A stretch of 64,000 nucleotides of DNA from NCBI RefSeq assembly GCF_019357415.1, contig NZ_CP048410.1, positions 372,001 to 436,000 of the forward strand, written 5' to 3'. The notes under the pieces were generated by a model. It saw nothing but the letters and a program-made list of their open reading frames with translations, was not told where the DNA came from and searched no databases. This DNA is from Gramella sp. MT6. GTDB taxonomy: Bacteria > Bacteroidota > Bacteroidia > Flavobacteriales > Flavobacteriaceae. Within the stretch, counting starts at the first letter, position 1. Each line of letters starts with the position of its first letter. The translations under genes and the position numbers were made by a program. Shown here piece by piece: positions 10,933-32,140 of the stretch.

Positions 10933-12765
10933 TTATTGATAACCAGCTGCCTGCAGGTTAAAAAGTTCGGCGTAGAGCTTATCGTTTGCCATTAACTCCA
11001 GATGGGTTCCTATTTCCAGCACAGCTCCATCCTTTAGAACCATGATCCTATCTGCAATTCTCACCGTGCTGAACCTGTGCGAGATGATCACCGCGGTCTT
11101 TCCTTCGGTTAGCTTTATAAACCTCTGAAAGGCTTCCGTTTCAGCACGGGCGTCCAAAGCAGAAGTTGGTTCATCCAGGATCAATACTTCAGAATCTTTC
11201 ATATAAGCTCTGGCGATGGCGATCTTTTGCCACTGCCCTCCGGAAAGGTCTTTACCATGCTTAAACCTTTTACCAAGAGGTTGATCATAACCTAAAGGAA
11301 GATCTTTCACCACTTCCCGGGCGAGACTTTTTTCAGCTGCGCCATCTATACGCGACTGATTAGAAATTTCACCGATCTCTCCCATAGCGATATTTTCCCT
11401 CAGGGTTAATTCAAATTTCACAAAATCCTGGAAGATCACTCCAAAATACTGCTGGTAGGCCGCCTGATCATATTTTTTAATAGGAATACCATCCAGAAGA
11501 ATCTGGCCTTCGGTTGGTTCATAGAACTGAAGCAAAAGTTTAATCAACGTGGTTTTCCCGGCTCCATTTTCGCCAACAAAGGCAAGTTTTTCTCCAGCCT
11601 TCAGTTCAAAATTAATATTTCGAACCACCCATTTTTCAGATTTGGGATATTTAAAGCCAACATTGATAAATTCAAATCCTTTCTCGATCTTTTCGGGCAG
11701 GTCGAGTTTCCCATCGGTAGAGCTTTCGGCATAGGTAAGATCCAGAAATTCGAAGTAATCCTGCAGATATAACGCGCTTTCGGTAATTGCCGTAAACCTG
11801 GTAAAAAACCCCTGCAGTTTAGACCTTAACCTGTTGAAGGATCCAGAAAGAAAAGTAAGGTCACCCAGGCTGAAAATTCCGGCAACGGTCCTGAAGATTA
11901 TAAAAATATAAGCGCCGTAATAAGCGGCAGTTCCAATCACATTAAAAACAGAACCCCAGCCCGCACGCTGTTTTGCCAGTCTCTTACTTTGTAAATAATA
12001 TTTATCTGAAAGTCCCTTGAAACGATCTGCCAGGTAATTCGATAGTCCGAATAATTTCACCTCTTTTGCGGTAACATCACTGGCCCCGGCATATCTTAGA
12101 TAATCCAGTTCACGCCGTTCTTGGGTCCAGCTACGAGCCAGTGAATAGCTGGTTCCGCTGAATTTGATCTCATTGATGATAGTCGGGATAATAGAAACCA
12201 CCAGAAGAATGATAAGCCAGGGTTCAAAAGCCACCACCCCGGCAAGCAGGGATATGATAACGATCACATCTTCTCCCTGGGTTAAAATATTAGACATTAA
12301 ACCTACTCGGCCTGTAGTTTGCTGGCGTGCCCTTTCCAGTTTATCATAGAATTCTGAATCTTCCAACTGGTCCAGGTTCAATTCTGAAGTCTTTTTAATG
12401 ATCTTCACGGAAGTGTCTATGGAATATTGATCGCCTAAAAGAGCATCGCTAAGGCTTATTCCCCGGCTAAGCAGATCTGAAATGATGGCAAGCCCAAATT
12501 CTGCCGCAACCAGGATCCAGAGCCTGTCGAGATCTTTAGTTTCAGCGGCGATCTGCACCACCACCTCATCGATGATCAGTTTTCCTACCCACAGCATGAC
12601 CACGGGAAGGATCGCATTCAATATTCTTCCACTGATATTAGTGTAAAAAAGAAGCGGATTCACCCGTTTGATCTCCTTAAAAAAGCGGGGTACAAATTTT
12701 AGGGAAGCAAAGCTTTCCCGGAAATTGATATTATTGGTTTCGAATGATTTTTTAGGCCTGGGCAA
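10933..12765 (-). CDS. ABC exporter, fused permease-ATPase half transporter (MsbA/MDR-like)
   Basis: 610 residues. The N-terminal part (about 40-330) holds hydrophobic helices of a type IV exporter transmembrane domain. The C-terminal nucleotide-binding domain has Walker A GENGAGKTTL, the Q-loop FGVIFQDFVKF, signature LSGGQWQKIAIARAY, Walker B VLILDEPTSALD and the H-loop SHRFSTVR. It should work as a homodimer exporting a lipid, peptide or drug-like substrate across the inner membrane; the substrate cannot be told from sequence. It lies 96 nt after the signalling operon on the same strand with no strong terminator between, so read-through is possible. Confidence 0.9.
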   Translation of the reverse strand: MPRPKKSFETNNINFRESFASLKFVPRFFKEIKRVNPLLFYTNISGRILNAILPVVMLWVGKLIIDEVVVQIAAETKDLDRLWILVAAEFGLAIISDLLSRGISLSDALLGDQYSIDTSVKIIKKTSELNLDQLEDSEFYDKLERARQQTTGRVGLMSNILTQGEDVIVIISLLAGVVAFEPWLIILLVVSIIPTIINEIKFSGTSYSLARSWTQERRELDYLRYAGASDVTAKEVKLFGLSNYLADRFKGLSDKYYLQSKRLAKQRAGWGSVFNVIGTAAYYGAYIFIIFRTVAGIFSLGDLTFLSGSFNRLRSKLQGFFTRFTAITESALYLQDYFEFLDLTYAESSTDGKLDLPEKIEKGFEFINVGFKYPKSEKWVVRNINFELKAGEKLAFVGENGAGKTTLIKLLLQFYEPTEGQILLDGIPIKKYDQAAYQQYFGVIFQDFVKFELTLRENIAMGEIGEISNQSRIDGAAEKSLAREVVKDLPLGYDQPLGKRFKHGKDLSGGQWQKIAIARAYMKDSEVLILDEPTSALDARAETEAFQRFIKLTEGKTAVIISHRFSTVRIADRIMVLKDGAVLEIGTHLELMANDKLYAELFNLQAAGYQ

Positions 12766-12861: not shown

Positions 12862-13902
12862 TTATTCCAAAACTTCAAAAATAGTTACCGGTTCGACCTT
12901 ATTCTTCAAATTAAATTTCCCTAATTCCCGGCACTTGAAATATTCCTTTATTTTCTCATAGCAGGACTCCCCAATAATGATCTGGTTCTCTTTTGCGATA
13001 TCCTGAAACCGGGCAGCTGTATTCACCGTATCACCGATCACCGTGTAATCCAGTCGCTTTAAACTTTCAGAACCTATATTTCCGGAAGTCATCTCCCCGC
13101 TTTTGATCCCTATGGAAACCTTGGGTTTAAAATCTGAATTCTCATCTGGAGGATCCAGTTCACTTATCTTATTTCTTACGGCCAGTGCCGCATCTACAGC
13201 CCGATCTAAATGATAATCTCCACGAAAAACAGCCATTATAGCATCGCCTATGAATTTATCTATGAACCCCTTTTGGGCTATGATCTCCTTCGCCATAACA
13301 TCAAAATAGGTATTTATCATTTTCACCACGGTATTGGGAGGCGCAGTTTCGCTTATCCTGGTAAAACCAACCATGTCGATAAAAACCACGCTGCCTTCTA
13401 TGGTTTCATTTTCCATTAAGGAAGACTCATATTCCCTACTGTTCATGAATTTAAGAACATTTTCATCCACGTACATTTTGAGAATATCATTCTCCTTTAT
13501 GGCGATCAGAGTATCTTTTAATTGCCTCGCATGCTGGATCGTTTTTTCAACGGTGATAGAAAGGTCTTCAAAGTTTATTGGTTTGGTTATAAAGTCGAAT
13601 GCACCGCGATTCATGGCCGTACGAATATTTTCCATGTCTCCATAGGCTGAAACGATCACCGCCTTGATGAGGGGATTCTTCTCATTCAACTTAGTCAGTA
13701 AAGTGAGGCCGTCCATTTCTGGCATATTGATATCGCTCAAAACAATATCTGTATCGGGTTCTTCCGAAATTTTCTCGAGGGCATCACGGCCGTTCAGGGC
13801 AAACCGGAAATCATATTCGTTATCCCGGATCTTCTTCCTGAACTTCTGCTTGATTAAAATCTCAAGATCTGCTTCGTCATCGACTACCAGTATTTTGACC
13901 AT
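12862..13902 (-). CDS. Response regulator with class III adenylate cyclase output
   Basis: 346 residues. The receiver (1-125) has VVDDE, phospho-acceptor D57 in LSDINMP, and FITKP. A short helical linker leads to a class III cyclase domain (about 165-346). All catalytic residues are visible: metal ligands D176 (FIDMVGFT) and D220 (KFIGDAIMAVF), adenine-binding K216, and transition-state N294 and R298 in VNTAARF. T287 (DYTVIGD) stands where class IIIa enzymes have Asp, which places it in class IIIb, predicted to make cAMP. It is the only output-domain gene and the last of the seven-gene kinase operon, 22 nt after the previous gene, so phosphorelay from the four kinases into cAMP is the natural reading (inference). 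Confidence 0.93.
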   Translation of the reverse strand: MVKILVVDDEADLEILIKQKFRKKIRDNEYDFRFALNGRDALEKISEEPDTDIVLSDINMPEMDGLTLLTKLNEKNPLIKAVIVSAYGDMENIRTAMNRGAFDFITKPINFEDLSITVEKTIQHARQLKDTLIAIKENDILKMYVDENVLKFMNSREYESSLMENETIEGSVVFIDMVGFTRISETAPPNTVVKMINTYFDVMAKEIIAQKGFIDKFIGDAIMAVFRGDYHLDRAVDAALAVRNKISELDPPDENSDFKPKVSIGIKSGEMTSGNIGSESLKRLDYTVIGDTVNTAARFQDIAKENQIIIGESCYEKIKEYFKCRELGKFNLKNKVEPVTIFEVLE

Positions 13903-13924
13903 GTTTAGAGATTTAATTATTTAT

Positions 13925-14305
13925 TTAGTTTAAACCACCAGGTATTCTTAACTCATTCCTCAGAGATTCAAAATTGATTGGTTTGGTAAAAAATTCCTTG
14001 GCTCCAGAATTTATAGCCTTATTGTAATTCTCAGAATCACCATAAGCAGAGATCATGCTTACCGGGATTTTAGGAAATCGTTTTTTTATTTTTTCAAGCA
14101 GCTCCAGGCCTGTCATTCCCGGCATATTAATATCAGAAAAAACATAAACCACATCGGGCGGATCCTTCCTTTCAAGGATCTTCAAGGCCTCTTTACCTGA
14201 AAATGCAAAATCTATTTCGAGGTCATTATTCCTTATTTCTTTTCTGAACTTCTGCCGGAAAAGGTCTTCTATATCTTTTTCATCATCTACTACCATTATT
14301 TTCAT
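13925..14305 (-). CDS. Single-domain response regulator (CheY-like), copy 1
   Basis: 126 residues, receiver only: VVDDEK, phospho-acceptor D58 in FSDINMP, SAYGDSE and the conserved FTKP lysine. It has no output domain, so it should pass phosphate on or bind a partner. The first 118 residues differ from the receiver at 18070-18447 at only nine positions. The end differs: this copy finishes with LRIPGGLN instead of the amphipathic last helix (IYDLIKK), so its alpha-5 helix is lost or altered. It lies 21 nt after the propeller kinase and 22 nt before the receiver-cyclase. Confidence 0.93.
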   Translation of the reverse strand: MKIMVVDDEKDIEDLFRQKFRKEIRNNDLEIDFAFSGKEALKILERKDPPDVVYVFSDINMPGMTGLELLEKIKKRFPKIPVSMISAYGDSENYNKAINSGAKEFFTKPINFESLRNELRIPGGLN

Positions 14306-14326
14306 ATTCCTTCAGATTTATTTTGA

Positions 14327-17300
14327 TCAATGCTTCTTTTTAAGATTTGCTGGCAACTGTATGGTAAAGGTGGTGCCCTCCTCGATGATTTCCTCACCAT
14401 ACCCGTTAGAGGTAACAGGAACGCCACTCTGTGTTTTTAGTTTTAAAATACCGCCATGAGTTTTTATGATATCATATGAAAGGGAAAGCCCCAAACCAGT
14501 CCCCTGTCCGCTAGGTTTCGTGGTGAAAAAAGGTTGAAAGATCTTTTCCTGAACTTCTGAAGGAATCCCTCTTCCATTATCAATAATATTGATATTAATG
14601 AACTTCCCGGCTTTCTCTGTACTTACAATTACCATGGGCTGATAATTTTCATCACTGGTTGTTCTCTTCCTTTCTGAAACCGCATAGAACGCATTATTGA
14701 TCAGGTTTAAAAATACACGGCCAATATCCTGCGGAGCGACATAGATCTTCGGAAGCGACTCATCGAAGTCTGTCTTCATCCCGGCGTTAAAAGTTTTATC
14801 CTTGGCCCTCAAACCATGATAGGATAACCTTAAATATTCATCGGCCAGTTTATTAATGTCGGTAAGTTCTTTTTCTGTACTGCTGTTACGGCTGTGCTGG
14901 AGCATACCCTTCACAATTGCATCTGCCCTTTGCCCGTGATGCCTTATCTTTTTTTCATTTTCAGCAATATCAAACAACAATTCATCTTCAAGTTCCAGGT
15001 CACGCTCCTGTTTATCCTTAAGTCTTTCCTGGCGCAACTCATCAATCAATTCAGAATTTACTTCGGAAAAATTATTCACGAAATTCAGCGGATTCTGGAT
15101 CTCATGCGCAATTCCTGCAGTTAGTTCACCCAGACTGGCCATTTTTTCAGACTGAATTAACTGAGCCTGGGTATTTTCCAGATCATGAATACTCTTTTGT
15201 AATTGTGCGGTCCTTTCAGAAACCCGTTCTTCCAGGATGCGATTTTCCTTTTTAAGCCATTGCGAGCGATATTGTATAATGCTGTATAAGATCAAAATTG
15301 CTAGTAATCCATACAAAAGGTAAGCCCACCAGGTTTTCCACCATGGAGGAACTATACTGAAACTGAATTGAGCAGGTTCGCTCCAGATATTATTATAGCC
15401 TTTAGAACGAACCATGAAAGTATAGTATCCCGGGGGCAAATCCCGGTAGTTTTCACTAGTTGTTTCCTTTGATATCGGGCTCCAGGTTTTATCGATGCCT
15501 TCAAGGAAATACCTGTAAACAACACTGCCAGGATTATCATAATTCAAACTTGTATAGCTAAAACTAAGATAGTTCTCATCATGCGGTAAGTTCAGTTCTT
15601 CAGGAAGATAATAAGGGCCTGCAAGATCTTTCCATTCAATATCGCTTTGCTCCTCAGGGTTATCCTGATTCCCAATAATGATAAAATTATCCCGGTTAGA
15701 ATTCCATATCGTATCAAACCCCTGCCGCTTATCTTTTAAGTAACTACCGGCATGAAACTCCTTATTTTCATCGGTAAGATTTAAACCCGTAATATAGGTG
15801 TGGGAAGCTGTGGTGTCCTGTTCAATTTCGTCTATGACGGTAAGGATCTGGTTTTCCACCCCTGCCCACAACCTGTCATTATTATCAAAAGAAATACTAC
15901 CCTGGGACACATCAAGATAATTTAGCCCCTGGTTAACATCTATGGTCTTAACGTCCCATAGAAGCTCATCTGTTGCCTGCGATTTTCTTTCATCTATAAC
16001 ATTAAATCCTTTGGAAGAACCCGTATAAACCTTGCCCTTGTGGAGAGCAACATCATAAACATCATTAGCTGCCAAACCCTGGTCTGTTGAGAAGTTATAT
16101 ATGCTATCCCTGTCTGCCTTTAAAAACTGCAGGCCTTTTTCGCCAGCCAACCAGGCTGAGTTATTTTCGTCAAATTCCATGGCAAATATGTTGCCTGCTA
16201 GAATTCCATTTTCTGCAGTAAGCAGGTAACTTAGATTTTTTTCCAGATCTACCTTCTGTACTCCCAAATCCCTCCAGCCTACCCAAATATCCCCTTCCAA
16301 ATCTATTTCCAAAAAATCATTGAAAGAGATCGAATCATTCCTGAAATCGAAAAACTCAGATCTTGAATTATCAAGATCTACAGCCATCAATTCTCCCCCG
16401 GTTCCTGCCAACCACATTTTGCCATTTTCACCCTGGGTAATACGCCTGATACTATCGGTTTTAATACCTTCAGTTCTGGTTAAAAATTGTATAGTTTCTT
16501 GCTCGGGATCTATAATAGTGGCTCCTGCAACATTTCCACAGGTCCAGATCCTGCCCTGTGCATCCTCAGTTAAACCGGTATGCCTCGCAGCTCTTAAACC
16601 AGCTTCCCTACCAAAATGTGTTATCTGCTTTTTTACTGGATCATAAACATCAATCCCATTGTAAGTACCAATCCAGGTCTTCCCATCTTTTGCCTGTAGG
16701 GTAGCCCAAACCTGATTTGCCCCCAGGCCATCTTCAACGCTAAAATTTCCTGGACGCCCGTTCTTATTATTTATCTTGAAAAGACCTCCGTTCATCGCCT
16801 TGGTCAACCAGATCTGGCCTTCTTCATCTTCAAGCATTGGAAAATAAACTTCCTTTGCCTCGGAATCATTTAAAATAAATTCTTCAGAACTGCTAAGATC
16901 TGGCAAGAATCTTTTTACGATTCCTTTTTCTAAAACCGTCCAGATGTTACCCTGCGTATCTTCTAGAACAAAATCTGCAATGTTTAGTGTATCTTTTGAA
17001 ATAGTTAGGTGAACCATTTGATGATCCTTTTTATCGATTCCGGTCACCTGGGTTCCATTAGTAATCCAAATCCTGTTTGAGGGGCCCTGGCTTACATGGT
17101 AGATTGGTTCTTTCAGGAATTCTCCCTGAATTAAATAGGTTCTCTTTTTTTCAAGATCGATCACCCTTAGTCTTTTTCGAGAAGTCAACCACATTAACCC
17201 ATCTTCATCTTGCATAGGTGTCACAAATGGATCCAGGCCTTGCTCACTATCATTAAAATATCTGGCAGATCTTCCGTCAAAATCGATAATACTATATCCT

Positions 17301-18064
17301 GTAGCCGCGTCTGAAGCCCATATTCTTCCTTCATTATCTTCCTCGAGGCCAAAAACAGGAGTTTTGCCAGGTAGGTTCTCCAATTCCAGTATTAGTTTAC
17401 GGTCTAAATCCAATATCATTAACCTCTCATTGCTGGCCAACCATATCCTTCCTTTCGAATCTACCAGAAGGGCAGTTGTTACAGGAACATTGATACCCTG
17501 ATTAGCACCGTACATTTCAATATTTTCTGAGTCGTAACGAGCTATACCATAGTTAGTGGCAATCCAAAGCATCCCTTCATTATCCTTTACTATATTGAAA
17601 GGATTTCCGGAAAGCCCAAAATTGAAGTTAGAACTCAAAACTCCCCTACTAGTGCCTGGCTGCTTCACCAATGAACCGGCTTTTCGTATTTCGGGATCAC
17701 CAAGCTCCACAACCTTAACTTTTATTTTATTTTCAGGTAATTTTTCAAGATCAAAAGGACTGGAAGGCAGACTGTCCAGGTAAAATGCTTCAGAAACGAT
17801 CTCCTTTTCAACTGGTTCTAACTCTCCTATTTCAAAAGATTTCGAGGGCAATTTATCCCAGTCGAACTTTAATTGTGGAAGTGCTTTTAATTGTACTTCC
17901 TCCCGGGTAATGGTATCGGGTGCTGGCATTCGGAAAGGTTTAGCCACCGGTTGCTCATATCCCAGATCCTTTTTAGGAAATTCGGGGGTTTCGGGAGCAT
18001 CCTGACAGGAAAGGAATGCACATGCACCTATCAGGAAAAAATATTTGAAAATAGCTTCTTTCAT
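14327..18064 (-). CDS. Lipoprotein-type beta-propeller sensor histidine kinase
   Basis: 1245 residues. The N-terminal signal ends in a lipobox (AFLSC, Cys20). About residues 130-780 are two-component-regulator propeller blades with recurring G-x-I/M-W-x-A/G units, then a Y_Y_Y domain (about 800-900). One transmembrane helix lies near 910-932 (WAYLLYGLLAILILYSI), followed by a coiled coil, a HisKA core with AGIAHEIQNPLNFVNNF and an HATPase domain (NNAFYAV, DNGRGIP, GTGLGLSLSYDI). It resembles the sensor half of flavobacterial hybrid two-component systems for glycans but has no receiver or AraC-type output of its own. It is flanked by two near-identical receiver genes, the likely partners. Ligand unknown. 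Confidence 0.92.
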   Translation of the reverse strand: MKEAIFKYFFLIGACAFLSCQDAPETPEFPKKDLGYEQPVAKPFRMPAPDTITREEVQLKALPQLKFDWDKLPSKSFEIGELEPVEKEIVSEAFYLDSLPSSPFDLEKLPENKIKVKVVELGDPEIRKAGSLVKQPGTSRGVLSSNFNFGLSGNPFNIVKDNEGMLWIATNYGIARYDSENIEMYGANQGINVPVTTALLVDSKGRIWLASNERLMILDLDRKLILELENLPGKTPVFGLEEDNEGRIWASDAATGYSIIDFDGRSARYFNDSEQGLDPFVTPMQDEDGLMWLTSRKRLRVIDLEKKRTYLIQGEFLKEPIYHVSQGPSNRIWITNGTQVTGIDKKDHQMVHLTISKDTLNIADFVLEDTQGNIWTVLEKGIVKRFLPDLSSSEEFILNDSEAKEVYFPMLEDEEGQIWLTKAMNGGLFKINNKNGRPGNFSVEDGLGANQVWATLQAKDGKTWIGTYNGIDVYDPVKKQITHFGREAGLRAARHTGLTEDAQGRIWTCGNVAGATIIDPEQETIQFLTRTEGIKTDSIRRITQGENGKMWLAGTGGELMAVDLDNSRSEFFDFRNDSISFNDFLEIDLEGDIWVGWRDLGVQKVDLEKNLSYLLTAENGILAGNIFAMEFDENNSAWLAGEKGLQFLKADRDSIYNFSTDQGLAANDVYDVALHKGKVYTGSSKGFNVIDERKSQATDELLWDVKTIDVNQGLNYLDVSQGSISFDNNDRLWAGVENQILTVIDEIEQDTTASHTYITGLNLTDENKEFHAGSYLKDKRQGFDTIWNSNRDNFIIIGNQDNPEEQSDIEWKDLAGPYYLPEELNLPHDENYLSFSYTSLNYDNPGSVVYRYFLEGIDKTWSPISKETTSENYRDLPPGYYTFMVRSKGYNNIWSEPAQFSFSIVPPWWKTWWAYLLYGLLAILILYSIIQYRSQWLKKENRILEERVSERTAQLQKSIHDLENTQAQLIQSEKMASLGELTAGIAHEIQNPLNFVNNFSEVNSELIDELRQERLKDKQERDLELEDELLFDIAENEKKIRHHGQRADAIVKGMLQHSRNSSTEKELTDINKLADEYLRLSYHGLRAKDKTFNAGMKTDFDESLPKIYVAPQDIGRVFLNLINNAFYAVSERKRTTSDENYQPMVIVSTEKAGKFININIIDNGRGIPSEVQEKIFQPFFTTKPSGQGTGLGLSLSYDIIKTHGGILKLKTQSGVPVTSNGYGEEIIEEGTTFTIQLPANLKKKH

Positions 18065-18069
18065 CTGTT

Positions 18070-18447
18070 TTACTTTTTGATGAGATCATATATTTCTTTT
18101 CTAAGAGATTCAAAATCGATTGGTTTGGTAAAAAATTCCTTGGCTCCAGAATTTATAGCCTTGTTATAATTCTCTGAATCGCCATAAGCAGAGATCATGC
18201 TTACCGGGATCTTAGGGAATTGCTTTTTTATTTTTTCAAGAAGCTCCAGGCCAGTCATTCCAGGCATATTTATATCAGAAAAAACATATACCACTTCGGG
18301 AGGATCTTTTCTTTCAAGGATCTTCAATGCTTCCTTACCTGAAAATGCAAATTCGATCTCTAAATCATTATTCCTTATTTCTTTTCTGAACTTTTGACGA
18401 AAAAGAGCCTCCACATCTTTTTCATCATCTACGATCAATATTTTCAT
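18070..18447 (-). CDS. Single-domain response regulator (CheY-like), copy 2
   Basis: 125 residues with VDDEKDVE, phospho-acceptor D58 in FSDINMP, and FTKP. Unlike copy 1 at 13925-14305 it keeps a normal last helix (LRKEIYDLIKK). The two copies are about 92% identical in protein and nearly as similar in DNA, which implies a recent duplication or gene conversion. It sits 5 nt after the SnoaL-like kinase gene and 5 nt before the propeller kinase gene, so it is tightly co-translated with both. With no output domain, it probably acts as a phosphate shuttle. Confidence 0.94.
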   Translation of the reverse strand: MKILIVDDEKDVEALFRQKFRKEIRNNDLEIEFAFSGKEALKILERKDPPEVVYVFSDINMPGMTGLELLEKIKKQFPKIPVSMISAYGDSENYNKAINSGAKEFFTKPIDFESLRKEIYDLIKK

Positions 18448-18452
18448 ATTCC

Positions 18453-19775
18453 TTATTTCTTTAATTTTACAATAAACCTGGTATATGTATTCTTATCTGT
18501 ATTAGACTCCATTTGTAATTCTCCACCATGTGCTTTGATGATATCATTAGTAATAGAAAGTCCTAGCCCTGTTCCCTCCGTTCCCTTTTTAGTTGTAAAA
18601 AAAGGTTGAAGGATCTTAGATTTATATTCATCAGATATACCCGGGCCATTATCTTCGATTTCAAGAATAATATTGTCGTCCTCACGATAAGTACGAATGC
18701 TAAGTTTTGGTGCGTATTCAAATTCAGGCTTAGACATCTTGAGCTTGTCATGCATAGCATCAAAGGAATTATTGCATAGATTTAAAATAACCCGGCTAAA
18801 GTCTTCATGAATAATAGAAACCTTGCCTATCTCTTCATCCAATTCATAATCTATACTCACATTCATTGGCTTTTTACCGGCTCTCATTCCATGAAAGGCC
18901 AGATTAACATACTCCTTTATGAGTCCATTAAAATCTACTTTTTCAGCCTTGCCATTGCCCCCACGACTATGTTGCAGCATAGACTTCACAATACTATCTG
19001 CCCTGGTTCCATGCTGTTTTATCTTCTCCAGATTTGACTTTACATCTTCAAGGATTTCCCTGGCCTCGCTCAGGGCAGCTGAGCTTTCTATTTTATTTAG
19101 TTCTTCAAAGGTCTCATCGATCAGTTCCACATTCAGGTCTGAAAAATTATTAACGAAATTGAGCGGATTTTTGATCTCATGAGCGATGCCGGCAGTTAAT
19201 TCCCCGAGGCTGGCCATTTTTTCTGAATGGATAAGCTGTTCCTGGGTAGCCCTTAAACGGTTTAAAGATTCTTCGAGCTGGGAAGTTCTTTTCTTTACTT
19301 CTTCCTTTAATTCTTCATTCTTCTTTTTAAGATGCTCAATTCCAAAAGTATCTATTTCACTATCCACAAATTCAGGTTTAGATCCATGAAAATGAACAAG
19401 CAACCATTTCCCTCCCGAGTACTCGTAGACACCCGTATACCTCATATACATTTCGATCTTCTCCCCATTGGCCGTGGGAGAGAAAAATTTTACATCATCG
19501 CAAAGAACCGCCACAGTATCGTTAGCCAGCATCCTGTATGAAAAGGGCTCTGAATTCCATTCCAAACGGTAATTTTCAAGTTGACTTAGAGTATTTCCAA
19601 GGATCCAGAGGTAATCTTCCTTCGAAAGGATCTTTTCATCCCAGGTTGTTCCAAAACCACTTATTTTGTCATCGATAAATTTTACGGCTTCCTTCTCAGA
19701 TAATTTACCGGTAAAGATTATCTCGAAAATTCGTTTATGAGTTTGATGAAGTATATTTTCTTTTGTATCCATCAT
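18453..19775 (-). CDS. Cytosolic histidine kinase with SnoaL/NTF2-like sensor domain
   Basis: 440 residues, no signal peptide or membrane helix. Residues about 8-135 look like an NTF2/SnoaL-like cone-shaped domain (DUF4440/SnoaL_3 type), ending in the typical GGKWLLVHFHGSKP strand. A coiled coil (145-185) leads to a HisKA core with H199 in AGIAHEIKNPLNFVNNF and an HATPase domain with NNSFDAM, EDNGPGIS and GTEGTGLGLSITNDI. NTF2-like folds often bind small hydrophobic ligands, so it may sense one in the cytoplasm (inference). It lies 12 nt after the TPR kinase and 5 nt before a receiver gene. Confidence 0.9.
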   Translation of the reverse strand: MMDTKENILHQTHKRIFEIIFTGKLSEKEAVKFIDDKISGFGTTWDEKILSKEDYLWILGNTLSQLENYRLEWNSEPFSYRMLANDTVAVLCDDVKFFSPTANGEKIEMYMRYTGVYEYSGGKWLLVHFHGSKPEFVDSEIDTFGIEHLKKKNEELKEEVKKRTSQLEESLNRLRATQEQLIHSEKMASLGELTAGIAHEIKNPLNFVNNFSDLNVELIDETFEELNKIESSAALSEAREILEDVKSNLEKIKQHGTRADSIVKSMLQHSRGGNGKAEKVDFNGLIKEYVNLAFHGMRAGKKPMNVSIDYELDEEIGKVSIIHEDFSRVILNLCNNSFDAMHDKLKMSKPEFEYAPKLSIRTYREDDNIILEIEDNGPGISDEYKSKILQPFFTTKKGTEGTGLGLSITNDIIKAHGGELQMESNTDKNTYTRFIVKLKK

Positions 19776-19787
19776 AAAATCAGAGTG

Positions 19788-22277
19788 TTAAACAGGTAAT
19801 AAGATAGTAAATATTGTTCCTTCTCCCTCTTTGGTATCTATTTTTAATTCCCCACCGTGTACCTGAATGATCTCATAACTAAGATAAAGTCCAAGTCCGG
19901 TGCCCTGCCCACTTGGCTTAGTTGTAAAAAATGGCTGAAATACCTTATCCAGGATATTCTGGGAAATTCCAATGCCATTATCCTTTACCTGTATACAAAC
20001 CTGATCAAGTTTTTTCCTGGTTAGAATTTCGACTTTTGGCATATACCCAGGATCCTTGGTATGGCATTTTTTCTGCTGTACAGCATAAAAGGCATTTGTG
20101 AGTAAGTTGAGGATCACCCTCCCTATCTCCTGCGCCATGACATTGATCTTCCCCAACCCCGGATCAAAATCCTTTTCCAGATCAGCATTGAATGATTTAT
20201 CCTTTGCGCGCAATCCATGATAAGCTAAGCGCAGATATTCATCACATAGAACATTTAGATCTGTAGGTTCTTTTTCAGAATTTTCTTTTCTGCTATGCTG
20301 CAGCATCCCTTTTACAATCGCATCTGCGCGCTTACCATGATGATTTATTTTATAAAGGTTATTCCTGATATCATTTAAAATGACTCTCACCTCATCATAG
20401 TTTCCTTTTTCAATTTCTTCAGCTAATTCATCGAGCAACTCATTATTTACTTCTGAAAAATTATTTACAAAATTTAATGGATTCTGGATCTCATGGGCAA
20501 TTCCGGCGGTAAGCTCTCCCAGACTTGCCATCTTTTCAGATTGGATTAGTTGGGATTGGGTAGCCTTGAGCTGATCTAAAGTCTGCTCTATTTTCTTCTT
20601 TTGTCTTTTTAATTGAGCATTGGCTTTTTGCTTGTTCTTATTGTTGCGGTATAAAATTATGGCCAGGACAACCACTGAAATCAAGACAATTAAAACACTT
20701 ATAATAAGCCAGCGCTGAAAAATACTTTCCTTTTCTTTTTTTAATTTTTCTCTTTCTAACAGATTTATGGTCTTTTCGCTTTCATCTAAAATAGAGCGTA
20801 TCTCGGCATCGGCTATCCTGTTTATTTCTTCAGATTTTTCTTTCTCTGACCTTAACAATTGATAGTCTTTTAAATACTGATAGGCCATTGCGGGATTATC
20901 AAGCTCCTCGTAAATCTGGGATAAAAGAAGAGTAGCCTTTTCAGTAGCCTGGGCGTTACTATCCAGATTTAAGGATTCGGTGGCATATTGTAAAGCCTGG
21001 TCATAATTTTCGATTTGAAAATGGCATTCCGCCAGGTATAAATTCATAAATGCGATAGCCCATTCAACTCCCTCTATTTTACTGAAACCCTGTTCAGCTT
21101 TCTGAAAATAGGGTATAGCTTCCTGGTATTTTCCCTGGCTTTTTAATATCTGGCCCTGAGCGTCGTTATATCTTGCAATGGCCCAGTCTTTACTTCTTAC
21201 GGTATCCTTGAGAGAAAGCTGCATATATTTTTTAGCCTCCTCATATTTTTCTATCGCAATGAGCGGAAATACAATGGTTCCATAGGCTATACGTAATCGT
21301 AAGGAATCCTTTTCCTTTTCTAATTCTTCAATTGCTATGCGATAGTTATCTGCCGCCCTGCTGTCCATACCATAATTCTCATAAGCTATGGCCAGGTTAT
21401 ACTGATCTATTATCCGCAATTCCCGATCTTCAACGGGATCTAATAGCTCCAGGGTTTTCAGGTAATATTCAATAGCCAGTGACCACCTGCCCTGCATTCT
21501 GTAACCATTTGCCATAGCACTATGGATAAGTGCCAGATTATTTTTATCCTGTTCTGCAGACATTAATTTGATCAATTCCAGCTCTATTTTTTTGGCCTCT
21601 TCTTCCTTTTCTAAATAGACCAGGGTTCCCATTTTAATGGTCGATAAATGAAATGCAGGATAGATCTCACCTATTTCTGAGAATAAGTTTATAGCTTCTG
21701 TTAGCTTCGTTAATGCTGTTTCCGGGCTCTCGAGGCGATAATAGGTTCCGGCGATAGCATATAAAAGATTCGCCTGTATCTCTTTGTTATCTGATAATTC
21801 ATCCCTTGCGAGTGTCTTATTAAATTGATCCTGAAACAGTTCTACATCTAAATTTGAATCAGACCTCAGTATATCTGTAAAATTGCTATTTTCATCACGC
21901 TCTTCCTCTAAGTAATTTGAGATCTGCTGAGCCTTTTTTCTATAATAAATACTTATGGGATTGTCTCGATCATAATAGAAAGAGGATAAGGTTAAATAGT
22001 ACATGGCTTTCCCTTCAGCATAATCCAATTTATCAGAAAGTGTTTTTGCTTCCTGTAGAGCCAGGAAACCATCTTCAAATTCAGGAATTAAAAAACACAA
22101 ACGCGCGAATTCATTCTTTAATTTTATAGTTCTTGTTCCGTCTCCTGAAGATTTATCTATAAGTTGTTTTATGCTATCCTTTTTAAATTTATAATCCTCT
22201 ATATCGCGGCTGGTCTGGCCTAAACTATTTAGACATACCGCTAAGAAAAGGATACATAATATGTGATTGATTTTCAT
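19788..22277 (-). CDS. TPR-repeat sensor histidine kinase
   Basis: 829 residues. A signal peptide (about 1-20) is followed by tetratricopeptide repeats across roughly residues 60-480, recognisable by repeats such as ALIHSAMANGYRMQGRWSLAIEYY. One transmembrane helix lies near 520-543 (WLIISVLIVLISVVVLAIIL), then a coiled coil, HisKA with AGIAHEIQNPLNFVNNF and HATPase with NAFYAVQQKK, DNGIGIS and GTGLGLYLSYEI. The TPR part is probably periplasmic and the kinase cytoplasmic. Its ATG overlaps the stop of the upstream giant kinase by 4 nt, so the two are translationally coupled. The kinase core is nearly the same as that of its neighbour. Confidence 0.92.
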   Translation of the reverse strand: MKINHILCILFLAVCLNSLGQTSRDIEDYKFKKDSIKQLIDKSSGDGTRTIKLKNEFARLCFLIPEFEDGFLALQEAKTLSDKLDYAEGKAMYYLTLSSFYYDRDNPISIYYRKKAQQISNYLEEERDENSNFTDILRSDSNLDVELFQDQFNKTLARDELSDNKEIQANLLYAIAGTYYRLESPETALTKLTEAINLFSEIGEIYPAFHLSTIKMGTLVYLEKEEEAKKIELELIKLMSAEQDKNNLALIHSAMANGYRMQGRWSLAIEYYLKTLELLDPVEDRELRIIDQYNLAIAYENYGMDSRAADNYRIAIEELEKEKDSLRLRIAYGTIVFPLIAIEKYEEAKKYMQLSLKDTVRSKDWAIARYNDAQGQILKSQGKYQEAIPYFQKAEQGFSKIEGVEWAIAFMNLYLAECHFQIENYDQALQYATESLNLDSNAQATEKATLLLSQIYEELDNPAMAYQYLKDYQLLRSEKEKSEEINRIADAEIRSILDESEKTINLLEREKLKKEKESIFQRWLIISVLIVLISVVVLAIILYRNNKNKQKANAQLKRQKKKIEQTLDQLKATQSQLIQSEKMASLGELTAGIAHEIQNPLNFVNNFSEVNNELLDELAEEIEKGNYDEVRVILNDIRNNLYKINHHGKRADAIVKGMLQHSRKENSEKEPTDLNVLCDEYLRLAYHGLRAKDKSFNADLEKDFDPGLGKINVMAQEIGRVILNLLTNAFYAVQQKKCHTKDPGYMPKVEILTRKKLDQVCIQVKDNGIGISQNILDKVFQPFFTTKPSGQGTGLGLYLSYEIIQVHGGELKIDTKEGEGTIFTILLPV

Positions 22278-25200
22278 CGGTTTGTTTTTATTGTGATTGT
22301 GAAGGTTGTTCCCGTGCCTTTTTGAGTTTCTACTTCTAGGACACCACCATGGGCCTTTACAATATCGTAGCTTAGACTAAGCCCCAAACCAGTTCCCTGC
22401 CCGGTTGGCTTCGTGGTGAAAAATGGCTGAAAGATCTTATCCAGGTTCTTTTTAGGAATCCCACAGCCGTTATCTTTAACACGAATAAACACCTGGCTCT
22501 CTTCTTTATGAGTTGAAATACTAACTTTTGGTTCATATAAAAGATCATTGGAGCTGTTTCTTTTCTGCAATACGGCATAAAAAGCATTGGTAAGCAAGTT
22601 GAGGATCACCCTTCCAATCTCCTGCGCCATCACAGCGACATTCCCAAGATCTGGATCAAAATCTGTTTCCAGATCAGCGTTAAAAGATTTATCCTTGGCT
22701 CTCAAACCATGATAGGCCAAACGCAGATATTCTTCACATAAAACATTAAGATCTGTTGGTTCTATTTCTGAATTACCTTTCCTGCTATGCTGCAGCATCC
22801 CTTTTACAATAGCATCTGCACGCTTGCCATGATGGTTAATTTTATTAAGGTTATTCCTGATATCCTTTAGAATTTCTTTTACCTCCTCCAGATCGCCCTT
22901 TTCTATTTCTTCGGCTATTTCATCTAGAAGTTCATTACTTACTTCAGAAAAATTATTCACGAAATTCAGCGGATTCTGGATCTCGTGGGCTATTCCTGCA
23001 GTTAGTTCTCCCAGGCTGGCCATCTTCTCAGATTGAATAAGTTGTTTCTGAGTTTGCTGAAGTTCTGTGAGTGCTTTTTCGGCATTTTCCCTGGCCGCCT
23101 TTATTTCTTTAAGATCCTGCTTAGCTTTTATGGCATTCGCTTCAGCAACTTTCAGATCTTTAAAACGGATGTAGGTAAGGTTAAATACTGCCGCAAAACG
23201 TTCCAGCAATTCAAGGGCATCTTCGTCCTGTTCCTCTCCGGAAGCCAAACCAATAAGTCCACCAGAAAAATAGGCCATGTACTGGATCCTCCTTTTTTGT
23301 TCCACACCACTCTGAAATGGGATCTTCAATTCCTCATTTAGATACTTGAAATAATTCTGCAATTCCCTGCCTTGCATATTTATTATCTGGGAAGTCTTTC
23401 CCTGCTTCCAGCCTTCTAACATCCGGGCAATCGAACTGTTTTTTGAAGCTTCTAACTTAAAGTGATTTGCTAGCCTGGTACCGTCTTCATTGGTTGCCCA
23501 GGCATCTATTGTGTCCAGGTCACTATCGATAAGGCCTATAAATAATCTATTTGGAGAAATCCCCAGTTCCAGTAGCTGCTCAAAAACGACCATAGAGGTT
23601 TCGGTAAATTCTTTGCTATATTCCATAGCCAGCGTACGGCTTCTCACTTTTTCCAGGGCTGTTTCCACCCTCGCTTCCCTTGCCCGCTCTTCAGCCTTTT
23701 GCAAATCGAGGAACCTGGTATAGGACTGTTCAAAGACCCTGGCAAACCTTTTAAAGATCTCGTAAGATTCCGGAACAGGTTCGTAGGTGATAAAAATGAG
23801 ATATCCATATTTAAAAAAAGCAACATGATCTATCTGGGAGGTTGGGAAAGAAATTCCCTGTGCTTTCATTTGCAGTAATTGATCACCGACTCCCGGCAGG
23901 GAGCATAAATATTCGTAATGTGCAGGACACTCGTCTTCATCTATTTCGTTGATCAGCAAGGATTGCCCTTGCTGGCCAGCATTATAATATTTAAGAAAAA
24001 TTCCTTCTCTTGGTGTTCTGTATTTAGGGAATACACCCTGGCCATTGCTACCCCATTCTACAGACCCTCTCTCATCCTCATCATAAATATTGAAGGCGCA
24101 AAACCAGGTGGACACACCAAGTTCCTGAACTTGTTTTACAAGTTCCAATGATAGATCTGCCAGATCTTCACTCTTCTGCATACCTATAGATCTGCTACGA
24201 ATCCTCTCTAAGGCAGCTTCGACCTGCGCTTCTCTGGCCTGGACTTCGGCCTTTTCCAGGTCACGAAAACGGGTATAAGTTTGCTGAAATACCTTACCGA
24301 ACCTTAAAAGGGTTTTATTTTCTTCTTCAGAAAAGGCCTCACCTTCAAAGTTCTCTATATAAAGCCCCACATCGTCCATTAAAACTGTGGATATGGCCAG
24401 CCCTTTACAGTTTTGATAATAGCTTATTACTTCTTCCGTTACACCAGGAATAATTTCAAACAACTCCTGATAAAACTTATTTTTCTCTTCAAATGTGTAC
24501 AGGTTGCTAAAAAAATTATCCCCTTTCTTTTTAGCCTTTAAAAAACTATGCCAGTGAGGAGTATCTATATAGGGAACAGTTACTTCAGCAGGAATACTAT
24601 TTTTATCGGTAAGCCAGATATGCATGTCATCGTTCTCCTTGTAGTCTATAATAAACCCGGCGTGTTCTATATTAAAATTCAGATGGACCAGCTGATCAAA
24701 TACGACCTTAATAACCTCCTCCAGTTCTGAACTTTTTTGCATTCCCATCGTTCTGCTACGCACTCTTTCCAGAGCAGCTTCGATCTGAGCTTCTCTGGCC
24801 TGGACTTCAGCTTTCTGAAGGTCCAGAAACCGGGTGTAAGCCTGCTCGAAAACCCTACCAAAACGCTCCAGTATTTCCAGGTCATTTTCAGAAATAGGTT
24901 CTTCACTTACTGTCTGGAGTCCGCTATATTCAAAAAAGGTAAAGCCAGCTACATATCTTTCAAGAGCCTTATTAGCTTCCTGAACATGCACAGGGAATCG
25001 CCTGAATTCAGTTTCTGAATAGAGATATTCATCATATATTTTTTTCTCTTCACCTTCAAGGGTATATATAAATCGCTTTTTCTGAGCCTTCCAGGCATCC
25101 CACATAGCGTGATGAAATGGATAATCTTCAAATTTCATATAGTAAGATTCGGCATCCCGTCCTGTTTCGGGATTTGCAGCCCAAACGGTATTGCTCTTAT

Positions 25201-27004
25201 CCTGTTCATCGATAAGATTGATAATACAGAAGGTAAGTGTGAATTCCAGATCTGTAAACTCCTGGAGAAGTTTATCTACCACAGATGACAACTCTGAGGA
25301 ATGGTGCATGGCCAGACTCCTGGACCTCACTCTTTCCAGAGCCGCCTCGATCTGAGCTTCCCTGGCCTGCGCTTCGGCTTTTTGGAGGTCCAGAAATCGG
25401 GTATAGGTTTGCTCAAATACTTTTCCGAAACGTTTAAAAATATCATGAGCTTCGGGAACTTCCTCATAGGTAATAAATAGTAAAAATCCCTTATTGAACC
25501 TCACCAGATGATTGAACTGTTTGGTAGGCAGATCTAATCCTGCCTCCTGGAATTGCTCAAAGGTGCTTTTAAGTTCCGGCAGAGATGTCATATAATCATA
25601 ATGGGCTACCAGGTCCTTACCGTCCTGCCCGTAAACAAAAAAATCAAGATTTTTAACTATCGCTTCATGCCAGGGAATCAAACTTTCATGTTCTGTTAAA
25701 GGCAATACGAATGGCTCTTGCAATTCCCCTTCGCTACTCATGATACAGGTACTGGATCTCTTATCTTCCGACAGAATATTATATCCTGCACTCCATGCGG
25801 GAATTCCTAATTTTCGAACTTCATTAAAAAGAACATTCGCTGCTTCTGGTAATTCATTAGAATGCTGCATGGCCATAGTACGGCTTCTAACCCGCTCCAG
25901 AGCTGCTTCGAACTGTGCCTCCCGGGCCTGGGCCTCTGCTTTTTTAAGATCCAGAAAACGGGTATATGCCTGTTCAAATACGCTTCCGAATCTCCTTAAA
26001 ACACTGTTCTCAAATTCTGTAAACACCCGGCCATGGTGATTGATTATAAATATCGAGGTGTTCCGGAATATGGCACATGACCGGGTATAACCTCCTTCAC
26101 GTGAGAAAACTTCATTTTTATGCGAATCATCTGCATTTAAATATGGAGGATGTTTGAAAAGGTGTTCAAAAAACTCAACTTTCTCTTTATTGCTAAATGC
26201 TTCGGTAAAAAAACCCGGGCCTTTTTTTATGCCTTTGATCAAGCCTTTATAAATAGGTTTATCTATAAAAGGAACATGAACTTTTTCTACATAATCTGCC
26301 GTACCTCCTGCCCCCCAGCACCAAAGTTCATCCTGTATATCTGAATTGATAATAATAAAGGCTCCTCCCGTAATTGGAAGCTCCAGTTTAAGCAGTTCCC
26401 GGCGAACCCTTTTAATTACATCCTGAAGCTCTGAGGTGTGCTGCATTTCCAGAGACTTCGCCCTGACTTTTTCCAATGCCATTTCTACCTGAAGTTCCCG
26501 GGACTTTTCTTCCAACTCTTTAGTCCTTCTATTAATAGCTTCCCGCAATTGTAAATTTTCAGCAGTGATCTGGTCGAAACCTATAGTCTCGCCTACATTT
26601 GCCTTGGCGTCTGGAATTGAAAAATGCTGATAAATGAATCGCCAACCTTCTTTTGTTTCGTGCAGAGCATTAGAAAACCTAAACCTTCCGTAAAAATTCC
26701 AATCTTCTTTATTCAAGAACCATGCGTCGAACAGGTGGGTAATAAATGCGATATTCCCGAACAACTCTACGGTTTTGATATTATTTCGCAGATCGGTTTT
26801 GCCCGAAAATTGATCGCTGGTTTTTCTAAAGAATTCGGTGGTGTCTTTTCGGTTTAGAAACTCTTCATTGTTTGTAGAACCAATGAAATGGTAATCATCA
26901 TCAAAATAGGAATCGTAGGTATCTATATCACCATTCAAATAACTATCAAGCCACTTTTGATAAATATTCAGAATCTCATTTTTATGTTTTTGAGTTATTC
27001 TCAT
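22274..27004 (-). CDS. Giant cytosolic histidine kinase: SnoaL-like domain plus six GAF-like modules
   Basis: 1576 residues from the ATG at 27004. An in-frame GTG at 27121 would add 39 residues that look non-coding, so I prefer the ATG. Domains in order: SnoaL/NTF2-like (about 1-125, ending GWRFIYQHFS); coiled coil; six modules of about 185-190 residues, each opening with a conserved coiled-coil connector such as REAQIEAALERVRSR and closing with F-x-x-VFEQ-x-YTRF; then HisKA (AGIAHEIQNPLNFVNNF) and HATPase (DNGCGIP, GTGLGLSLSYDI). The modules look GAF-like but diverge strongly inside, as if each binds something different. No membrane helix. It is the first gene of the signalling operon. Confidence 0.88.
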   Translation of the reverse strand: MRITQKHKNEILNIYQKWLDSYLNGDIDTYDSYFDDDYHFIGSTNNEEFLNRKDTTEFFRKTSDQFSGKTDLRNNIKTVELFGNIAFITHLFDAWFLNKEDWNFYGRFRFSNALHETKEGWRFIYQHFSIPDAKANVGETIGFDQITAENLQLREAINRRTKELEEKSRELQVEMALEKVRAKSLEMQHTSELQDVIKRVRRELLKLELPITGGAFIIINSDIQDELWCWGAGGTADYVEKVHVPFIDKPIYKGLIKGIKKGPGFFTEAFSNKEKVEFFEHLFKHPPYLNADDSHKNEVFSREGGYTRSCAIFRNTSIFIINHHGRVFTEFENSVLRRFGSVFEQAYTRFLDLKKAEAQAREAQFEAALERVRSRTMAMQHSNELPEAANVLFNEVRKLGIPAWSAGYNILSEDKRSSTCIMSSEGELQEPFVLPLTEHESLIPWHEAIVKNLDFFVYGQDGKDLVAHYDYMTSLPELKSTFEQFQEAGLDLPTKQFNHLVRFNKGFLLFITYEEVPEAHDIFKRFGKVFEQTYTRFLDLQKAEAQAREAQIEAALERVRSRSLAMHHSSELSSVVDKLLQEFTDLEFTLTFCIINLIDEQDKSNTVWAANPETGRDAESYYMKFEDYPFHHAMWDAWKAQKKRFIYTLEGEEKKIYDEYLYSETEFRRFPVHVQEANKALERYVAGFTFFEYSGLQTVSEEPISENDLEILERFGRVFEQAYTRFLDLQKAEVQAREAQIEAALERVRSRTMGMQKSSELEEVIKVVFDQLVHLNFNIEHAGFIIDYKENDDMHIWLTDKNSIPAEVTVPYIDTPHWHSFLKAKKKGDNFFSNLYTFEEKNKFYQELFEIIPGVTEEVISYYQNCKGLAISTVLMDDVGLYIENFEGEAFSEEENKTLLRFGKVFQQTYTRFRDLEKAEVQAREAQVEAALERIRSRSIGMQKSEDLADLSLELVKQVQELGVSTWFCAFNIYDEDERGSVEWGSNGQGVFPKYRTPREGIFLKYYNAGQQGQSLLINEIDEDECPAHYEYLCSLPGVGDQLLQMKAQGISFPTSQIDHVAFFKYGYLIFITYEPVPESYEIFKRFARVFEQSYTRFLDLQKAEERAREARVETALEKVRSRTLAMEYSKEFTETSMVVFEQLLELGISPNRLFIGLIDSDLDTIDAWATNEDGTRLANHFKLEASKNSSIARMLEGWKQGKTSQIINMQGRELQNYFKYLNEELKIPFQSGVEQKRRIQYMAYFSGGLIGLASGEEQDEDALELLERFAAVFNLTYIRFKDLKVAEANAIKAKQDLKEIKAARENAEKALTELQQTQKQLIQSEKMASLGELTAGIAHEIQNPLNFVNNFSEVSNELLDEIAEEIEKGDLEEVKEILKDIRNNLNKINHHGKRADAIVKGMLQHSRKGNSEIEPTDLNVLCEEYLRLAYHGLRAKDKSFNADLETDFDPDLGNVAVMAQEIGRVILNLLTNAFYAVLQKRNSSNDLLYEPKVSISTHKEESQVFIRVKDNGCGIPKKNLDKIFQPFFTTKPTGQGTGLGLSLSYDIVKAHGGVLEVETQKGTGTTFTITIKTNR

Positions 27005-27315
27005 ATTAAATAAGTTTCTGGAATTGAAGGGATGAACATTAGTTTCAGATAATAAATCTTTACCGCGATAAATAGGAAATAGAATTATAATTAAAACCAC
27101 CTGATATTCAGCGGAAATCACTTAGTTAATATACTCTATTTCAGTAAATTAAATCGAAAAATAGGATGAAAAGCCTGAAAAACTACATCAGTTGCAACAA
27201 ATCTTAAATGTTTTCGATTCAATAAAAGAAAGCAGGGAGTTCAGGAATGCAAGCCTTAACTAAAAATTATTGATCCACCCCAGGAAATGGCAATCTTCTT
27301 CGGTAGATTTCAGGC

Positions 27316-27343
27316 AAAAAAAATGACACCTGAAAGGTGCCAT
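27316..27343 (-). terminator. Rho-independent terminator after the 240-residue secreted protein gene
   Basis: Minus strand reads ATGGCACC-TTTC-AGGTGTCAT followed by a run of T. It lies about 32 nt past the stop of the gene at 27375 and isolates it from the kinase operon. Confidence 0.85.
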
Positions 27344-31116: not shown

Positions 31117-31677
31117 TCATAAAAACGTGGCTATGATATAATAGATCACGATCATCAACAGTAAAACGAATTGGATCGCCAGAAACTTCAGGGCGCGCTG
31201 CACGTTCCTGAATTTGAGGTTGGCGATCTTGGCATTAATGAATATTTGTTGCCCTAACTGATCGAATAACTTTTCCTCATCCAGGCTGATACTAAAAAAG
31301 GTACGGGAGAATTGCTTGATATCCCCAAACTTGGAGATCACATCCCCGAAGAAAAATATATTCTTGTCATATTTTGATTCGATACGCGGCATGAAACACC
31401 TAATGCTGTAATAAATAGAAACTACGGCACAGGAGAACCAAACTGCCAGTAGTATAAAAATGATAGTATCATCTTCAAAATGGTCGAGAACAATACTAAT
31501 ATTCTGATAAACAAAATTCAGCAGGATACCGTAGAAAGAAAGAATCAAACCAGCCTTTATCTCTGAAGCCTTAATTAAACTGGAAACATAACTTATACTA
31601 CCCCAATAATGGTCAATAAGATCATCTGTATGTTTATTCTTTAAGTGCGGAAAGGTTTTGTTTTCAGATTCTTCCAT
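31117..31677 (-). CDS. DUF5706-like membrane protein (Pycsar TM-effector family)
   Basis: 186 residues. Two N-terminal helices (about 42-62 and 68-92) follow an amphipathic segment with ASEIKAGLILSFYGILL. After them come FFFGDVISKFGD and a helical stretch DQLGQQIFINAKIANLKFRN, then a C-terminal membrane helix (about 164-184). This order (D/E-x-KA helix, FFGD motif, Q-I/x-A-K helix, final helix) matches DUF5706, the membrane effector fold of Pycsar anti-phage systems, which opens the membrane on binding cyclic pyrimidine nucleotides. No adjacent PycC-type cyclase is seen, so it may be an orphan or have a housekeeping role. Confidence 0.68.
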   Translation of the reverse strand: MEESENKTFPHLKNKHTDDLIDHYWGSISYVSSLIKASEIKAGLILSFYGILLNFVYQNISIVLDHFEDDTIIFILLAVWFSCAVVSIYYSIRCFMPRIESKYDKNIFFFGDVISKFGDIKQFSRTFFSISLDEEKLFDQLGQQIFINAKIANLKFRNVQRALKFLAIQFVLLLMIVIYYIIATFL

Positions 31678-31804: not shown

Positions 31805-32140
31805 TTAATAAAGTATATTATCCAGGATCTTATCCAGGGTATTTTCCATCATGCTGAACTTTTTATCAGAAAAGAAGATCTCAAACATCTCCTTTCTCAA
31901 TTTTGCAAGTTCCTTATGGGAATATTCATGCATCACCAGATTATCCTGAATCTTTTCAAGACTCTCCTCCTCTGTATCCCCGGAAAATTCCTGATATATT
32001 TTATCAAAGGTCTCTTTATCTGTTTTGGATTTAATTAAACTAAGCTCTTCCTCCGTCACCTTTGAGTCGGCATTTGCACATAGCATTAAGATATAGATCT
32101 GAAGTTCGGTCTTGGTCCAGTGTTGCTGTTGGTTATTCAT
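31805..32140 (-). CDS. Small TerB-like helical protein
   Basis: 111 residues, all helical and acidic, no signal peptide. LQIYILMLCANADSKVTEEELSLI is the typical start of TerB/TerB-like domains, where an acidic A-D-x-x-x-x-x-E-E motif follows the first helix. A second helical half (EIFFSDKKFSMMENTLDKIL) completes the fold. TerB-like proteins occur in tellurite resistance and envelope stress complexes, but many are free-standing with unknown roles. It lies about 127 nt before the DUF5706-like gene on the same strand. Confidence 0.6.
   Translation of the reverse strand: MNNQQQHWTKTELQIYILMLCANADSKVTEEELSLIKSKTDKETFDKIYQEFSGDTEEESLEKIQDNLVMHEYSHKELAKLRKEMFEIFFSDKKFSMMENTLDKILDNILY

Follow-up and report, generated by a model that had tools for sequence, protein, structure and literature searches.

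We analysed a 64-kb window of Gramella sp. MT6 (NZ_CP048410.1, 372,001–436,000; coordinates below are positions in this window), which carries an operon of seven signalling genes, all on the minus strand (12862–27004, by open reading frame (ORF) calling). In the order of transcription these are HKgaf, HKtpr, HKsnoa, RECa, HKprop, RECb and RECcyc. The intergenic spacings are 22, 21, 5, 5 and 12 nt, with one 4-nt overlap. A preliminary description of this DNA had listed seven same-strand genes with gaps of 22 nt or less and one 4-nt overlap, coding for four kinases of the HisKA-HATPase type that differ in their sensors, a pair of single receivers and one receiver-cyclase. The ORF coordinates bear out the first statement and Pfam the second.

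The kinases differ in their sensors and in their predicted location. HKgaf (22274–27004; the ATG is at 27004 and an alternative GTG start at 27121 is also open) carries a SnoaL-like domain (SnoaL_3) and six GAF-like repeats, and HKsnoa (18453–19775) a SnoaL-like domain (SnoaL_3). Neither has a transmembrane (TM) segment as judged by hydropathy. HKtpr (19788–22277) has a signal peptide, a TPR sensor placed in the periplasm and one TM segment. HKprop (14327–18064) has a periplasmic Reg_prop propeller, a Y_Y_Y domain and one TM segment, and its N-terminus resembles a lipoprotein signal by eye. Hydropathy therefore supports the proposed division into two cytosolic (HKsnoa and HKgaf) and two membrane-bound kinases (HKtpr and HKprop). 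Pfam does not recognise the HKgaf repeats, of 185–202 aa, as GAF domains. For one of them, structure prediction from a 36-repeat alignment gave a model with a pLDDT of 90.8, and the PDB structures that it matched best were GAF domains of PDE2A (E 4e-4 to 7e-4, TM-score ~0.5). The predicted fold supports a GAF-like nature for this repeat, and alignment makes the same likely for the others. The ‘six GAF-like’ repeats of the preliminary description can be retained to this extent, by fold match for one and by alignment for the rest, as long as they are not called Pfam GAF domains.

HisKA and HATPase_c were found by Pfam in all four kinases, the HisKA matches of HKprop and HKtpr lying under the curated cut-off. 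To speak of ‘almost the same’ core, as had been done, is an overstatement, the cores being 49–77% identical. Because identity is 77% between HKtpr and HKgaf, 65% from HKprop to either and 49–53% from HKsnoa to the other three, such closeness fits the first pair, HKprop less well and HKsnoa poorly. The segment following the phosphoacceptor histidine, HEIxNPLNFVNNFS, is near-identical in the four operon kinases. Its His, Glu and Asn are kept in 252 of 253 distinct cores of the family, the remaining one having a gap; this set comes from 266 cores obtained in overlapping fetches of the same genomes, with identical cores merged and each locus label denoting a fetched region. The HKprop core is 86% identical to that of the kinase at the same position in a genus relative (locus L007).

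Both RECa (18070–18447; Pfam REC) and RECb (13925–14305; Response_reg, 8e-25), the latter just upstream of RECcyc, are single-domain receivers. They are 89% identical to each other and about 50% identical to the RECcyc receiver; RECa is probably a local duplicate. RECcyc (12862–13902; 346 aa) joins a receiver (Response_reg, 5e-24) to a class III cyclase domain (Guanylate_cyc, 2e-22). It is the sole enzymatic output of the operon, no other operon receiver having an output domain in Pfam. We examined its residues in an alignment of 99 distinct close relatives, a set that excludes the divergent L196–L198. In the receiver pocket D57, S85 and K107 were found in 99/99 and D8 and D9 in 98, one sequence being truncated; the Asp pocket residues of the single receivers were likewise kept in 96/96 rows (93 distinct). 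The catalytic positions D176, D220, K216, T287, N294 and R298 were invariant in 99/99. We take D176 and D220 to bind metal, K216 and T287 to contact the substrate and N294 and R298 to act on the transition state. K216 and T287 are the same in aligned chains of CyaB and of photoactivated adenylyl cyclase, and the best PDB matches of RECcyc were adenylyl cyclases (87.7 bits, compared to 26 bits for BcPycC, 7r65). By these residues RECcyc is a class III cyclase of the adenylate-cyclase type (K/T), and its product would be cAMP. The earlier statement that the only output domain is an adenylate cyclase holds in this sense, with adenylate-cyclase-type residues in every close relative of the set. As judged by its residues the operon is also a two-component system, in which phosphotransfer may be presumed.

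The operon proteins stand apart in their own genome. When the whole genome was searched with the core of HKtpr, 27 matches were obtained; the operon kinases scored 568, 424, 323 and 252 bits and the fifth match 63. With a profile built from the four operon kinases, these scored at least 474 bits and other matches in the genome at most 100. The three operon receivers showed 50–92% mutual identity in BLAST, compared to at most 34% for the next receiver among the 30 of 41 receiver matches compared. Kinases and receivers of the operon are families unique to it in this genome, their members being far closer to one another than to any other kinase or receiver compared.

The recurrence of the operon was followed in 395 genomes of the same family and in 296 genomes of the phylum, both drawn evenly and both containing related genomes, and in an 80-locus set. 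The latter is biased to close relatives because it holds the best 80 of 571, and several of its genomes recur in the samples (three identical pairs in the RECcyc alignment). RECcyc relatives of at least 60% identity occur across Bacteroidota. In the family sample RECcyc was present in 49/395 genomes, and 45 of the 49 loci were read up to about 17 kb upstream, some arrays being truncated where the sequence read came to an end. All 45 had at least one kinase of the family and one single receiver upstream. One kinase was found in 10 loci, two in 14, three in 12, four in 7 and five in 2, giving two or more in 35/45. The remaining four genomes (G000, G310, G107 and G118) likewise carry family kinases. 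Two single receivers, as in the window, were seen in none of these 45 loci but do occur in G303 (same genus), L018, L193 and L194. In the phylum sample a RECcyc relative was found in 24/296 genomes, with at least 459 bits in 21 (22 loci, including our own) and about 220–230 bits in three. The kinase family was present in all 24, as against 57/296 overall, and within the class the genome sets of RECcyc and of the kinase family nearly coincide (19 and 20 genomes). At the 21 strong loci other than our own, a contiguous upstream family kinase was found in 19 and a single receiver in 19; among the three weak loci only L198 has both. The corresponding figures in the 80-locus set were 70/80 and 71/80, and 5 of its 10 kinase-less loci run into a contig start. 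Longer arrays also exist. In G118 eight kinases lie in one same-strand run with three other genes inserted, and in G111 (L203, L202, L201 and L189) eight and two kinases, with other genes between, lie within about 60 kb. On the strand opposite to its kinase array, G111 also encodes another protein with a cyclase domain (446 aa). The neighbourhood search in Flavobacteriaceae proposed in the preliminary description thus found the genes co-conserved at every locus read. Its remark that no described system of this design was known to it needs qualification: we found none among the open-licence titles and abstract starts listed, but the operon is not a one-off. Modules of this kind recur in Bacteroidota, and how many kinases they have differs from locus to locus.

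The sensors vary from kinase to kinase. A Pfam scan of 41 of the 42 phylum-sample family kinases (the L198 kinase was left out) found a propeller in 7, SnoaL in 6, TPR in 5, GAF in 1 and HAMP in 1, many kinases having no named sensor. For 75 of 201 cores the nearest neighbour lay within their own fetched region (shuffles gave a mean of 0.7% and a maximum of 3.5%), often with a different sensor. Sensor type follows core relatedness only in part, as for propeller kinases (16/39, against a background of 15%). Since the nearest cores often share a region while their sensors differ, we conclude that transmitters have been copied locally and then given new sensors. Genes of 379–397 aa often stand alongside the arrays. 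The one tested encodes a FIST domain (L226:6149–7291), the others being judged by size and position, and where they lie beside short family kinases such genes may supply soluble sensor partners.

A further gene of the window, absent from the preliminary description, is likely to encode the output partner of RECcyc. It codes for a 186-aa protein of the PycTM family with two TM segments (31117–31677, minus strand; Pfam PF18967, 1.4e-14; PADLOC PycTM, 1.5e-28). The gene lies 17 kb from RECcyc, with some 4.1 kb between it and the start of the operon on the upstream side, and is displaced compared with many relatives, in which its ortholog follows RECcyc. In same-family genomes this ortholog is the commonest gene next after RECcyc. 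In the family sample PycTM was found in 51 genomes, RECcyc in 49 and both in 35, where about 6.3 would be expected (Fisher p 1.7e-26, ignoring genome kinship). In 29 of the 35, PycTM lies 31–791 nt downstream of RECcyc on the same strand. In 27 of these cases, and in G107 too, no other ORF on the strand separates the two, and G382 has one 202-aa ORF between; by hand count the 29 cases span 20 genera. In the 80-locus set PycTM follows RECcyc in 16/80. Within the genus it stands on the same side and at a like distance in three sister genomes, and directly downstream in two more distant members. Over 17 loci, the identity of PycTM is positively correlated with that of RECcyc (Spearman 0.50, permutation p 0.002). 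In two genus genomes lacking RECcyc, PycTM adjoins another class III cyclase (608–614 aa, 28–33% identical to the cyclase part of RECcyc), and in G118 it stands beside an HD protein followed by a 648-aa cyclase. The PycTM model matched no PDB fold at E ≤ 0.001, and the single PDB sequence match, a glutathione transferase at E 0.005, was taken as chance.

HD and YitT genes belong to the same surroundings. An HD and/or YitT gene comes next after RECcyc in 19/80 loci of the best-80 set (L029 assigned by Pfam, L079 by NCBIfam and the other 17 joined by BLAST clustering) and in two phylum-sample loci. HD-YitT fusions, HD alone and YitT alone all occur, and L029 encodes a YitT-DUF2179 membrane protein with an HD domain fused to it. 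The HD domain that is joined to PycTM in the genome of the window is homologous (30–36% identity) to the post-RECcyc HD domains tested. From neighbourhood and fusion, cyclase, HD and PycTM would form a loosely connected set, as synthase, possible hydrolase and receptor.

On its 3′ side a 96-nt gap separates the operon from an ABC transporter gene (10933–12765). Coupling to this transporter was rejected: RECcyc loci gave four weak phmmer matches to it (41–92 bits), and operon-free members of the genus keep it beside or close to PycTM. In five such members (G306, G318, G312, G300 and G316) it adjoins PycTM or has 1–3 genes between; by these operon-free sites the kinase-cyclase operon is a block that is either present or absent. 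Between PycTM and the operon, a DUF418 gene (three matches at RECcyc loci, all on the opposite strand) and a gene for a 240-aa protein (no matches at RECcyc loci) were discarded as partners. A terminator-like hairpin with a T-run, noted by eye on the minus strand, lies between the 240-aa gene and the operon (~27315–27343); a consensus scan lists this stem on the plus strand only. An HGSNAT-like acyltransferase gene follows PycTM (29847–31031, minus strand) here and in L015, its membership of the system being uncertain. A gene for a 111-aa protein (31805–32140, minus strand) is found near PycTM, on either side, in 12 of 13 genus genomes compared, and was not seen in G297. A defence gene, for a restriction endonuclease of the GmrSD type (4380–6242; Pfam GmrSD_N and GmrSD_C), lies 6.6 kb from the operon.

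Taken together, these results make it rather probable that the operon is a many-to-one two-component hub making cAMP, which would often act on the membrane effector PycTM. The four kinases, with similar transmitters and different sensors, would phosphorylate the RECcyc receiver and both single receivers. Two sensors would read the inside of the cell (SnoaL, SnoaL plus GAF) and two the periplasm (TPR, propeller). Phosphorylation of its receiver would align the RECcyc class III homodimer and cAMP would rise. RECa and RECb may compete for phosphate as a sink, or feed back on the kinases, and so set the threshold and the time course. In this class of kinases an E-x-x-N motif after the histidine goes with phosphatase activity. 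The operon kinases keep it and probably also dephosphorylate the same receivers, so that the output could be turned up as well as down by signals. Pfam found no phosphotransfer domain in the operon proteins; a relay from a single receiver to the cyclase would therefore require a kinase, or some protein from outside the operon, as intermediate. Over evolution the sensors are exchanged and the transmitter, the receiver and the cyclase are retained, and in relatives of the Flavobacteriaceae kind a PycTM-family membrane protein would be a main receiver of the messenger. The operon had been seen as an integrator of internal and external signals into cAMP. Co-conservation, the genome-unique kinases and the cyclase residues support this design, and integration by phosphotransfer, with cAMP as the product, would be its expected working.

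Several observations weigh against such a hub. The genome holds five further class III cyclase matches and six matches to cNMP-binding domains, so cAMP is not exclusive to the operon, and with six class III matches in all we rejected RECcyc as the sole cyclase of this genome. Outside the class, 32 of the 37 kinase-bearing genomes of the phylum sample lack RECcyc. Conversely, RECcyc loci without an adjacent family kinase occur in the phylum sample (L184 and L187) and in the 80-locus set (L026, L029, L044, L062 and L081). In genomes with RECcyc, kinases of the family are also found at a distance from it, and in other classes they stand beside a receiver-SpoIIE protein at two loci (L225:6756–7952 and L226:13120–14295). 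The family is consequently not tied to the cyclase, and strict cyclase specificity was rejected. A receiver-SpoIIE gene at L187:3455–4615, also in another class, lies near the same receiver or kinase family, with the output domain exchanged. As for PycTM, a directly downstream position was seen at only 2 of the 21 strong phylum-sample loci other than our own. In the family sample 14/49 RECcyc genomes lack it at the threshold used and 16/51 PycTM genomes lack RECcyc, as do 9 of the 15 PycTM genomes in the genus of the window.

The cAMP made by RECcyc could instead serve CRP/FNR-type or receiver-cNMP-binding regulators elsewhere in the genome, with PycTM a neighbour of separate function. We regard this as unlikely, yet as a reading to be reckoned with, given the cNMP-binding domains just mentioned, two of them apparently in the same frame as a receiver (L119/L146 and L123/L144, 360 and 352 aa; possible cross-points of two-component and cyclic-nucleotide signalling), and given how often PycTM is present without RECcyc. 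However, PycTM and RECcyc co-occur and lie close over 20 genera, in G301, G297 and G118 PycTM has another class III cyclase beside it or close by, and the HD domains encoded after RECcyc in some loci are homologous to those that PycTM carries as a fusion in others. Insulation is another matter: were each kinase to act on its own target, the locus would house four separate systems clustered by tandem duplication. Within-locus nearest neighbours are indeed common, as plain duplication predicts, and some family kinases stand alone elsewhere, but the four kinases are encoded with only three receivers, of one family, their recognition segment is almost identical and no other operon receiver has an output. 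The chance that they are insulated is slim.

A two-component-controlled relative of Pycsar would behave differently, RECcyc making cUMP or cCMP, PycTM killing or arresting the cell under phage attack and the kinases sensing infection damage. PycTM is a clear member of its family and is co-located with RECcyc in relatives. RECcyc also scores 87.5 bits against the PADLOC PycC model PDLC02367, compared to 28–49 for four of the five other class III cyclases of the genome (all but L004); this score was not accepted as proof of a pyrimidine cyclase, other class III cyclases matching the same models at lower values. Nevertheless, RECcyc shares the K216/T287 pair with CyaB and photoactivated adenylyl cyclase, and its best PDB matches are adenylyl cyclases. 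Part of PMC11224242 describes R142 and Q144 before the metal Asp D146 in EaPycC (clade E) and a lysine, K104, in AnPycC (clade D). RECcyc has a lysine at the R142 spacing, which is not decisive since AnPycC also has one. Neither the many and varied sensors nor the constant chromosomal location within the genus hints at a defence island, despite the GmrSD gene 6.6 kb away. We consider a Pycsar-like role improbable here, and the many-to-one hub making cAMP remains our preferred reading. More tentatively, and with rather less than even confidence, it may extend to the whole phylum, interchangeable kinase arrays feeding one receiver-cyclase whose messenger gates PycTM, with the anti-phage use in Pycsar as one branch.

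Some parts of this design are known from other systems. In CyaC-type cyclases of cyanobacteria the kinase and receiver domains lie within the cyclase protein. The operon has separate kinases (1–5 per locus read, with swapped sensors), a separate receiver and no kinase-cyclase fusion. What the two have in common is two-component phosphorylation, proposed for CyaC as the switch of a class III adenylate cyclase in a passage of PMC4284465 that names one phytochrome-like kinase, AphC, as activator. At least six histidine kinases converge on the single-domain receiver MrrA of alphaproteobacteria in a similar bow-tie, but the output, as given in part of PMC5964349, is the general stress response via PhyK-PhyR and not a cyclase. 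Pycsar (PycC with PycTM or PycTIR) likewise links a class III cyclase to a PycTM-family protein with two TM segments, according to the section of PMC11224242 on these systems. RECcyc differs in its fused receiver, its adenylate-cyclase-type residues and its kinase arrays, and a defence role is only putative. In the window the effector is present (31117–31677) at 17 kb from the cyclase, without adjacency. For this reason, and because the base pocket is ambiguous (K216/T287, with a lysine in AnPycC) and defence putative, we do not file the module as Pycsar. The receiver-SpoIIE loci (L225 and L226) share the kinase family and a single receiver followed by a receiver-output protein, but the output is a SpoIIE phosphatase instead of a cyclase. 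Among the open-licence titles and abstract starts listed, which do not prove absence, we found no description of Bacteroidota kinase arrays with a receiver-cyclase, nor of PycTM outside defence.

The first four sequenced members of the phylum were reported to lack adenylate cyclases, as stated in part of PMC1183210. The module would place cyclic-nucleotide signalling in this same phylum under two-component control. It offers a compact natural many-to-one case, in which the number and kind of sensors vary by species while the output stays constant, so that rules of integration become directly testable. It also brings a family of anti-phage effectors together with a regulated cyclase in a setting beyond any demonstrated defence role. 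If the messenger does gate PycTM, the Pycsar membrane effector would be part of a wider family with an ordinary regulatory duty under two-component control.

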